In this document: positions 40,814-43,569 of the stretch, in pieces
Layout of the letters: every line of letters starts with the position of its first letter
How positions within the stretch are numbered: the stretch's first letter is position 1
DNA from: Sulfurovum sp. TSL6
Lineage (GTDB): Bacteria; Campylobacterota; Campylobacteria; Campylobacterales; Sulfurovaceae
DNA length: 64,000 bases
Reading direction: 5' to 3'
Assembly (NCBI RefSeq): GCF_019972115.1
Contig: NZ_BPFJ01000001.1
Span: 620,001 to 684,000, forward strand
Program-made: the position numbers and the translations under genes
Notes under the pieces: model-generated
Database searches by the model: none
What the model was told of the DNA's origin: nothing
The model's input: the letters and a program-made list of their open reading frames with translations, nothing else

Positions 40814-41569
40814 TTACTGTAACAAAGAGATCAATTCTGTTACATCATCCACACAAAAGTCCGGTGTGATACCTCTATCAAGATCAGATGATTGAAATTT
40901 CCCTGTTCTAACAAGCGCTGTTTTAAGTCCGGCATCTTGAGCGCCTTTGATATCTGAGACGATGTCATCACCTACCATCATTACTTCCTCAGGATCTAGT
41001 CCCATCGAATCTACTGCAAGATGGAAGAAATCTTTACTTGGTTTACCTATGATCTTGGCTTCCACGTCTGCAGCAAACTCCAGTCCAGCAATAAAACCTC
41101 CTGCATCCATAGAAAGCCTGTTGTCTTCATCTTTAAAATATCTGTTTTTGGCAGCGGCTATGAGCCCTGCACCCTCTTGTAAATGTCTAAAAGCGATATT
41201 GAGTCTTTCATAGTTAAAATTCAAATGTGCATCTCCAACAACAACAAAGTCTGGCGTGTCAGACTCTAATTCCCTAAACCAACTCGCAGCTTCATCTGTC
41301 AAAAGTGTATAAACCGTCCCGTTTTGTGATATCACATATTTTTTTGTTGCATCAAGTGCTGTAAATAATTCTTCGGGTTTTACAGAAAATCCCATGGTAT
41401 TTAGCTTATTCATCATGACTAAAGGTGTACGTCTGGTCGTATTCGTTAAAAAACGCATCGGATAGATGGTCTGTAATGATGCTATAGCCTCATTTGCACC
41501 AGGTATAATGCTGTCACCGACATATAATACACCGCCAATGTCAAATAACAATCCTTTTATCTTATGCAT
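40814..41569 (-). CDS. HAD-IIA family hydrolase, LHPP-like
   Basis: The 251-residue protein is a class IIA HAD: motif I LLFDIGGVLYVGD, motif II FLTNTTRR, the LLTDEAASWF cap region, and motif IV MMVGDDIVSDIKGAQDAG. Motif I has Gly where most HADs have the second catalytic Asp (DxD), as in the LHPP/hyp3 branch (DISGVL). It may be a phosphatase with altered mechanism. It is convergent with the SufB-like gene, 62 bp away. Confidence 0.85.
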   Translation of the reverse strand: MHKIKGLLFDIGGVLYVGDSIIPGANEAIASLQTIYPMRFLTNTTRRTPLVMMNKLNTMGFSVKPEELFTALDATKKYVISQNGTVYTLLTDEAASWFRELESDTPDFVVVGDAHLNFNYERLNIAFRHLQEGAGLIAAAKNRYFKDEDNRLSMDAGGFIAGLEFAADVEAKIIGKPSKDFFHLAVDSMGLDPEEVMMVGDDIVSDIKGAQDAGLKTALVRTGKFQSSDLDRGITPDFCVDDVTELISLLQ

Positions 41570-41663: not shown

Positions 41664-41692
41664 TTGCATATTTTCTATTATCCTGCTATAAT
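41664..41692 (+). promoter_or_regulatory. sigma70 promoter of the helicase leader
   Basis: TTGCAT (41664-41669) and TATAAT (41687-41692) are separated by 17 bases. Transcription should start near 41699, which leaves a leader of about 246 bases before the helicase ATG. Confidence 0.7.
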
Positions 41693-41699
41693 TCCGAAC

Positions 41700-41945
41700 T
41701 TTTACTGCAAGAGAGTATCAAACTCCTTATTTAGATACATCATGAGATGTATCACCTATTTTCCACATATCAATGTGGACATCTGATAGTTTGGTATCAA
41801 GTTGCATAAAACAGGGTGTACCCTATTCGCTTTAGCGATGGGGATATCGGCAATGAGTGCCAGATAACATGCTTGTAACTTTAGAACCGTTCTATCGCCA
41901 AGACCTTACCACCCCACACTAATAACAACATAAAGAAAACAATAT
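41700..41945 (+). promoter_or_regulatory. Long, highly structured 5' leader of the DEAD-box helicase gene (possible riboregulator)
   Basis: The leader can fold into two multibranch domains. Domain 1: a closing stem 41715-41724/41788-41797 (10 bp, two G-T) encloses hairpins GATACATC/GATGTATC (41734-41753, loop ATGA) and CCACAT/ATGTGG (41763-41778, loop ATCA). Domain 2: 41799-41807 pairs with 41869-41872 plus 41877-41881 and encloses AGGG/CCCT (41813-41824), TCGC/GCGA (41827-41838) and GGCA/TGCC (41849-41861). GCGAT (41835-41839) could instead pair with ATCGC (41894-41898), a possible switch, and GGGG (41840-41843) with CCCC (41912-41915). I recognise no known riboswitch, 6S RNA or tmRNA. Helicase autoregulation is inference. 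The upstream 41570-41663 holds nothing I can name. Confidence 0.6.
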
Positions 41946-43418
41946 ATGAAATTTACAGATTTTAACCTCAAAGACACTATTCAAGCTGCGATAACAGACG
42001 CAGGATTTACAGAACCAAGTCCAGTTCAAAAAGACGCTATACCTTTAGTATTAGAAGGTCATGACATGGTTGCACAAGCACAAACAGGTACAGGTAAAAC
42101 TGCTGCATTTGGACTTCCTATTATGAGTATGATGAAAGCGGATGGTTCAGTGGAAGGACTTGTTATCGTTCCTACACGTGAATTGGCAATGCAAGTAAGT
42201 GATGAACTTTTCCGTTTTGGTCAAAAAAGCGGACTTAAAACAGCTACTGTATATGGTGGTACTCCGTATGGTAAGCAGATAGAGCGTATCAAACAAGCTT
42301 CTATCGTCGTAGCAACACCGGGTAGACTCCAAGACTTACTTATGAGTGGAAAGATCAAAATGAATCCTCAGTTCGTTGTACTTGATGAAGCAGATGAAAT
42401 GCTGGATATGGGTTTCCTCGACGAGATCAAGAACATTTTTACATTCCTACCTAAAGAACGCCAAACATTGATGTTCTCAGCTACAATGCCAAGTGCGATC
42501 AGAAAACTTGCAGAACAGATCTTAAAAAACCCTAAAACAGTTTCTATCACAAAGGCTGAGAGTACAAATACTTCTATCACACAGCTTTACTATGTCGTGC
42601 AGGACAAAGAGAGAGACGATGCGCTTGTAAGACTTATCGACTACAAGAACCCTAACAAATGTATCATCTTCTGTCGTATGAAAAAAGAGGTGGATAGACT
42701 GGTAGCACACATGACTGCGCAAGGGTTCAAAGTATCCGGTCTTCATGGAGATATGGAGCAAAAGCAAAGAGAAGTAACGATCCGTGCCTTTAAACAAGGT
42801 GGTATCGATATTTTCATAGCAACAGATGTTGCAGCACGTGGTCTTGATGTCAATGACGTTACGCATGTATTTAACTACCATATTCCTTTTGATTCTGAAT
42901 CATATGTTCACCGTATCGGTCGTACAGGTCGTGGTGGTAAAACAGGTGAAGCGATCACATTGGTAAGCCCTAATGAGCTTAGAACCATCAAACGTATAGA
43001 AAAAGACGTTGGTACGAAGATGACCACACAAGTGATCCCTACTCGTATGGAAGTACAAAATAACCGTGCAGATGCACTCATCACGAAAATTTCTGAGACT
43101 AAAGTGACTGAAAGTGCAATCAACCTTGTAAAAACATTACAACATGACTTAGACATCGTGACGATCGCACATCTTCTTGCTTCTTTGGTACAGGAAGAGA
43201 ATTTTGTAAAAGGTAAAGACAACATTGGTCTTGGTCTTGAAGAGGTAGAACTGCTTATAGAAAGAGCCATGAAAGGCGGAGGCGGTGGTGGCCGTAACCG
43301 TGGTGGTTATCGTGGCGGTAACAGAAGTGGCGGCGGTCGCAGTAGACACGGTCGTAACGGACGTTCAAGCGGTAGTCGTGACAGCCGTAACGGCGGACGC
43401 GGGAGCAACAGAGGGTAA
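41946..43418 (+). CDS. DEAD-box RNA helicase with Gly/Arg-rich tail
   Basis: The 490-residue protein has the full motif series: Q motif and AQTGTGKT (I), PTRELAMQ (Ia), DEAD (II), SAT (III), FCRMKKEV and RGLDVNDVTHV (V), HRIGRTGRGG (VI). A linker (about 400-445) is followed by an RGG-type tail (from about 447: GGGGGGRNRGGYRGGNRSGGG). It should unwind RNA in ribosome assembly or cold adaptation. Close to CsdA/RhlE in type, but without a DbpA domain. Its own leader is structured, which suggests feedback control. Confidence 0.95.
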   Translation: MKFTDFNLKDTIQAAITDAGFTEPSPVQKDAIPLVLEGHDMVAQAQTGTGKTAAFGLPIMSMMKADGSVEGLVIVPTRELAMQVSDELFRFGQKSGLKTATVYGGTPYGKQIERIKQASIVVATPGRLQDLLMSGKIKMNPQFVVLDEADEMLDMGFLDEIKNIFTFLPKERQTLMFSATMPSAIRKLAEQILKNPKTVSITKAESTNTSITQLYYVVQDKERDDALVRLIDYKNPNKCIIFCRMKKEVDRLVAHMTAQGFKVSGLHGDMEQKQREVTIRAFKQGGIDIFIATDVAARGLDVNDVTHVFNYHIPFDSESYVHRIGRTGRGGKTGEAITLVSPNELRTIKRIEKDVGTKMTTQVIPTRMEVQNNRADALITKISETKVTESAINLVKTLQHDLDIVTIAHLLASLVQEENFVKGKDNIGLGLEEVELLIERAMKGGGGGGRNRGGYRGGNRSGGGRSRHGRNGRSSGSRDSRNGGRGSNRG

Positions 43419-43500
43419 ACTACCCTCCCACCTCTCTTCTCCTTATCTCTTACATATTGATCCACTCCTACATAAGTTCACTCTTTGTACAATAATGTTT

Positions 43501-43538
43501 AAAAAGTAATAGGTGGCAGGTAACATCTATTACTTTTT
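43501..43538 (+). terminator. Bidirectional-type intrinsic terminator after the helicase
   Basis: AAAAAGTAATAG (43501-43512) pairs with CTATTACTTTTT (43527-43538) over 12 bp around a 14-base loop. The T run is part of the stem end, with an A run on the 5' side. Confidence 0.7.
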
Positions 43539-43569
43539 ATCCCTTATTTAATTTAGATAGAATAACTTC

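Follow-up and report, generated by a model that had tools for sequence, protein, structure and literature searches.

The 5' region of a DEAD-box RNA helicase gene of Sulfurovum sp. TSL6 is almost certainly, judged from comparison of sequences, a conserved cis-acting leader of the helicase mRNA. It combines compensatory changes in a conserved structure with a constant position ahead of one gene, which are the marks of structured cis-regulatory leaders. The window, i.e., the whole stretch of 64,000 nucleotides that was analysed, contains the helicase gene (41946-43418, plus strand) and, divergent to it, a gene for a HAD-type hydrolase (40814-41569, minus strand), with the promoter located between the two. 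The region comprises the following features:

41687..41692, plus strand: -10 box TATAAT, found in the sequence, preceded by TGC and followed 5 nt further on by ACUUUU
41698..41816, plus strand: conserved structured 5' leader element in which P0, an internal loop and P1 lead to a multibranch junction bearing P2 and P3, identified by covariance models R1 and R2, covariation and an independent RNAalifold consensus
41700..41709, plus strand: 5' strand of P0 (UUUU and UGCA), partner of UGCA and AAAA at 41803-41811; 99.0% of the cells paired, both-side changes in 2 of 8 pairs
41803..41811, plus strand: 3' strand of P0 (UGCA and AAAA), assigned by covariation
41715..41724, plus strand: 5' strand of P1, GUAUCAAACU; 99.2% of the cells paired, both-side changes in 4 of 10 pairs
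41788..41797, plus strand: 3' strand of P1, AGUUUGGUAU, covarying with the 5' strand
41734..41753, plus strand: hairpin P2, GAUACAUC-AUGA-GAUGUAUC; both-side changes across species in 6 of 6 modelled pairs
41762..41779, plus strand: hairpin P3, UCCACAU-AUCA-AUGUGGA; both-side changes in 3 of 4 modelled pairs
41816..41864, plus strand: inserted dispersed repeat of about 49 nt, recognised by its other copies in the genome and the genus
41872..41903, plus strand: segment CUUGUAACUUUAGAACCGUUCUAUCGCCAAGA, conserved in sequence in 14 type II leaders, with a possible weak hairpin P5
41932..41936, plus strand: Shine-Dalgarno-like AAAGA, conserved as AAAG in the alignment and predicted to be open in both folds
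41946..43418, plus strand: DEAD-box RNA helicase of 490 amino acids, the sole gene found behind this leader (PF00270, PF00271; CshA as best NCBIfam match; PDB 5ivl)

An earlier note on this DNA had placed a sigma70 promoter ahead of about 246 untranslated bases and a DEAD-box helicase gene. The helicase was confirmed, as the open reading frame starting at 41946 matches both Pfam families PF00270 and PF00271. For the promoter, the -10 box stood up to comparison: all 61 leaders counted carry TATAAT, TATACT or TACAAT 5-6 nt upstream of the element with its conserved ACUUUU, and 58 of them have TATAAT or TATACT at the same spacing, the remaining three showing slight variants. A consensus -35 box, on the other hand, is absent from the helicase promoter of this genome. 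Because the -10 box precedes the conserved ACUUUU by 5-6 bases across 61 leaders, the helicase transcript should start near the predicted position 41698, consistent with the previously proposed 41700. In 48 of 65 leaders, though not in that of this genome, a conserved CTATCTT, CTAGCTT or CTAGCAT box precedes the -10 box at a fixed distance of about 18 bases. On the other side, a terminator-like hairpin of 16 pairs (43500-43539) lies 3' of the helicase gene.

The minimum free energy predicted for the 253-nt leader was -62.7 kcal/mol, compared to -45.8 ± 4.05 kcal/mol for dinucleotide shuffles (z = -4.16), and none of 200 shuffles was as good, in agreement with the previous impression that the region holds more structure than a plain leader. 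P1 consists of ten pairs, inside which lie P2 and P3 and, depending on the species, extra hairpins; the number and length of these peripheral hairpins are free to vary among leaders. P0 is rich in A-U pairs. The internal loop between P0 and P1 is conserved, the 3' strand of P1 is near-invariant, and in the otherwise variable element two unpaired stretches have kept their letters, CAAGAG 5' of P1 and CUCC 3' of P1.

The leaders were aligned and used to build covariance model R1, with which 78 genomes of the genus were searched. In the 65 genus sequences obtained, 98.0% of the cells pair and 62 cells show double changes, compared to 11.4 in shuffles. When sequences of other genera were added, 97.9% of the cells paired, 15 of 28 pairs were changed on both sides, and 81 double-change cells stood against 15.1 in shuffled controls (0/500). 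Sliding the partner strands by one to three columns lowered the pairing from 97.9% to 35-55%. Since these alignments were fitted to the covariance model, an independent check was made with RNAalifold on a structure-free MAFFT alignment of 18 leaders, which returned the same four helices. The covariance analysis suggested in the earlier note thus found covarying stems in the first domain (41698-41816). By comparative analysis, the secondary structure runs from P0 through an internal loop into P1 and a junction whose hairpins vary.

With model R1, the element was detected in 65 of the 78 genus genomes and in 38 of the 40 good assemblies among them. It occurs once per genome, except for one genome with a second, weak match (E = 0.027). 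All 65 genus copies are located directly upstream of the same DEAD-box helicase gene, including four in which the gene start was masked or lay farther away and which were checked individually. Exact matches to the leader core among named genomes all belonged to Sulfurovum or other Campylobacterota assemblies. A search of 399 genomes of the order yielded, outside the genus, only G336, a member of the same family with the element ahead of the same helicase (E = 1.5e-6), and three weak matches (E = 0.003-0.036) beside which no helicase was seen; presence of the element outside the family was therefore rejected. Leaders of other genera were collected starting from the helicase gene and then scored with the model. 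G455, from another genus, gave an E value of 5e-18, and with the model run at full sensitivity the helicase leaders of G455, G476, G481 and G336 reached 80.4, 56.0, 50.0 and 38.6 bits, respectively. Three further genera of the family likewise carry the element ahead of this helicase. In most family genomes a second, shorter helicase paralog is found, where the covariance model gives no match.

Other helicase leaders differ. In ten leaders from other genera (L122, L123, L126-L129, L131-L133, L139), the predicted mRNA start UUUUCUGC is kept, whereas the leader is short and the rest of the element absent; in L128 and L133 this start can pair with CAGAAAA ahead of the ribosome site. Two very short leaders, L144 and L206 (genomes G412 and G357), consist of UUUCUGC and a hairpin, formed by AAGAGUAUU and AAUACUCUU in L144, and resemble the alternative hairpin that the long element could form at its 5' end. 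Because the leaders of certain genera are short or of another type, regulation of the helicase gene does not depend on the element throughout the family. Two helicase leaders from another family of the order, L189 and L191, look unrelated and have a long-range stem of their own (ACGAUUCGAUC/GAUUGAAUCGU; z = -2.7 and -4.9), which suggests separate structured leaders ahead of this helicase. The broader proposition of structured helicase leaders throughout the Campylobacterota was dropped, since the excess was modest (z < -2 in 29% of them, compared to 9% of control upstream regions).

At the gathering threshold, Rfam 15 recognised only two tRNAs in the whole window. At E ≤ 5 the leader gave a single, meaningless lncRNA match of 15.9 bits, and at E ≤ 0.05 eight related loci gave only a tRNA outside the leader. 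None of the Rfam families, including riboswitches, cspA and the RNase E leader, was reached, so that the RNA, previously described as unassigned, keeps that status after the Rfam search proposed at the time. The literature searched on bacterial structured RNAs, outside which most subscription literature lay, held no mention of such an element. The leader element is therefore apparently an undescribed RNA family, of a kind that is already known, namely the structured leaders of RNA-metabolism genes.

The downstream half of the leader is of a different nature. In a DNA search of relatives, positions 41690-41817 matched upstream of the helicase in many members of the genus, whereas 41828-41867 matched unrelated places too. 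Two multibranch folds had been proposed for the leader; the first corresponds to the conserved, covarying element, but the second consists mostly of the dispersed repeat (41816-41864), which most related leaders lack. The repeat has a consensus near GTGTACCCCACTTACGCTTTAGCGACAGGGGTATCGGCATTTAGTGCCAGA and four further copies in this genome, about five in total, and is also found elsewhere in the genus. Among the leaders it occurs at a single position in those of five related genomes (L001, L002, L070, L077, L084) and is missing from all others. The repeat, seen also in L031, L032, L211 and L219, has short hairpins and in several places lies between longer palindromic arms. It illustrates that a regulatory leader can take up a small dispersed repeat, which then persists in a group of related species. 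Further downstream, hairpins P4, P5 and P6 were discarded as parts of the element, since covariation is absent despite conserved letters; the type I counterpart of P5 likewise showed no covariation.

Competing pairings that could act as a switch had also been pointed out. Such pairings do exist in the predicted folds: in many leaders the minimum-energy fold has the 3' strand of P1 paired downstream instead. Two families of downstream partners were found, RUACY versus GGUAU in 40 type I leaders, with five pairs that are never broken and no covariation signal, and UGYAACUU versus AAGUUGCA in type II leaders. The two predicted states are nearly equal in energy: the median difference (A-B) was +0.4 kcal/mol at 5°C, -0.1 kcal/mol at 37°C and -0.8 kcal/mol at 55°C. 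When the downstream part was shuffled, however, the competing pairing hardly changed in type I leaders (0.25 native versus 0.22 shuffled) and in this genome (0.27 versus 0.23). Only in type II leaders, the clade of this genome, was it weakly above shuffles (0.36 versus 0.18; four of 14 leaders individually below 0.05, these being from related species). A possible alternative 5' hairpin (Q1) had one pair with three double changes and 18 breaks. We therefore make no claim of a two-state switch, as the type I competing pairing lies at about the level of shuffled downstream parts and covariation is lacking.

These results bear on a leader responsive to temperature or stress, a cspA-like RNA thermosensor that would increase helicase production at low temperature with no action of the helicase on the leader. 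Helicases of the CsdA/CshA type are linked to cold, RhpA of Helicobacter pylori is required for growth at 33°C (PMC5874925), and the two near-equal folds and their shift with temperature would fit. We nevertheless regard this explanation as unlikely, because the competing fold is no higher than in shuffled controls in most leaders, the ribosome site is predicted to be open in both folds, the cspA family of Rfam is not matched and, in the same source, the RhpA protein of H. pylori is described as not induced at 33°C.

With respect to the output of the leader, the accessibility of the ribosome site was 0.77 and 0.73 in the two predicted folds, and conservation runs on through the linker up to this site. 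No intrinsic terminator was found between leader and gene, as the vicinity of the gene start held no GC-rich stem followed by a proper T-run; this gives no evidence for a transcription attenuator. In a scan of 61 leaders limited to ATG starts (GTG and TTG left out), none had an open reading frame of at least five codons with a Shine-Dalgarno-like site ending in the leader, giving no evidence for an upstream open reading frame. Mimicry of 16S or 23S rRNA was also discarded, as local alignment scores of eight leaders were within the shuffled range. With the ribosome site open in either predicted fold, control of mRNA stability or protein binding is to be expected, and these are also the likelier outputs left when no terminator, upstream open reading frame or rRNA mimicry is found. 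On the basis of the folding models, the output is thus more probably mRNA stability or protein binding than masking of the ribosome site.

Another explanation is that the leader is a site for a different regulator, either a small molecule in a riboswitch or an RNA-binding protein other than the helicase, for which the P0/P1 internal loop and the junction strands would be the recognition site. The conservation of CAAGAG and CUCC although they are unpaired speaks for it. We consider it quite unlikely, since the element serves one gene only, a helicase without a metabolic partner, no Rfam riboswitch is matched, and neither a terminator nor masking of the ribosome site is available as output.

The helicase itself may connect the leader to RNA decay. 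Its best NCBIfam model is CshA (NF053631), with 497.7 bits below the cut-off of 646, and its PDB match 5ivl is also CshA; by sequence it is CshA-like, yet not assignable to the family. It is likely the counterpart of H. pylori RhpA. As described in PMC5874925, RNase J is universal in Epsilonproteobacteria and RNase E/G absent, RhpA and RNase J form a degradosome in H. pylori, this degradosome is needed for feedback on rnj via the 5'-UTR/promoter region of that gene, and in the cold RhpA is recruited to ribosomal subunits. For the helicase gene crhR, autoregulation is known (PMC3485376).

Our favoured, still tentative reading is that the leader acts in cis to control the mRNA of the helicase itself, most probably by negative feedback via 5'-end structure and mRNA decay. 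P0 begins at the predicted transcription start, and feedback via 5'-end protection is suggested because P0 covers the first bases of the mRNA in an organism with 5'-3' decay. The first transcript bases would be locked in P0, joined by the conserved internal loop to P1 and the hairpin junction. When the helicase is scarce, or engaged in assembling ribosomes, as happens in the cold, the element would stay folded and the 5' end protected; when it is plentiful, it would open P0/P1 and expose the 5' end to an RNase J-type decay machinery. Against feedback we count that the excess of 5'-end pairing over shuffled controls was moderate (0.68 versus 0.47 in a genus sample, and mixed in relatives), that P0 is A-U rich, that H. 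pylori RhpA is not induced at 33°C, and that leaders differ among genera. A more specific version, in which the degradosome helicase of bacteria without RNase E would gauge its own level by unfolding the structure that hides the 5' end, in analogy to the RNase E leader but based on the 5' end, is doubtful. The RNA family, with its clear covariation, points to a specific site of control in the RNA metabolism of bacteria using RNase J and not RNase E, and offers a concrete case for how a decay machinery may adjust its own amount.

The same position of P0 at the extreme 5' end, together with the free variation of the peripheral hairpins in number and length, would also suit a simple stabiliser, a constitutive structure that shields the mRNA from 5'-end decay without sensing. 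This we hold to be very unlikely, because the conserved internal loop and the near-invariant 3' strand of P1 exceed what a stabiliser needs. Release of the leader as a separate trans-acting small RNA, the alternative raised before, for which its compact fold and own promoter could be cited, is highly improbable, as 65 of 65 copies adjoin the same gene, conservation extends via the linker to the ribosome site, and no terminator-like site with a convincing T-run is present in the leader.

The cspA cold-shock thermoregulator resembles the Sulfurovum leader in being long, structured and placed at the 5' end of the mRNA of a cold-related gene. The Sulfurovum leader, however, matches no Rfam family in sequence or structure and has no supported temperature switch. 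For the protein, the CshA degradosome helicase (NF053631, PDB 5ivl) is the closest named family and solved structure. The crhR gene of Synechocystis is likewise a DEAD-box helicase gene and is autoregulated, partly via transcript stability and temperature, but it is cyanobacterial, and no structured leader element or UTR is mentioned there (PMC3485376). In H. pylori, which belongs to the same bacterial class, the degradosome, made up of RNase J and a related helicase, exerts feedback on one of its own genes via a 5' region; the target is rnj and not the helicase gene, and the accessible text of PMC5874925 describes no conserved RNA element. The 5'-UTR of E. coli rne, the feedback leader of RNase E (Diwa et al., 2000, as cited in PMC5874925), differs in that the Sulfurovum RNA is another one, as judged by Rfam, the gene codes for a helicase, the group has no RNase E, and feedback is only proposed in Sulfurovum; what both have in common is a conserved structured leader of the gene for an RNA-decay enzyme.
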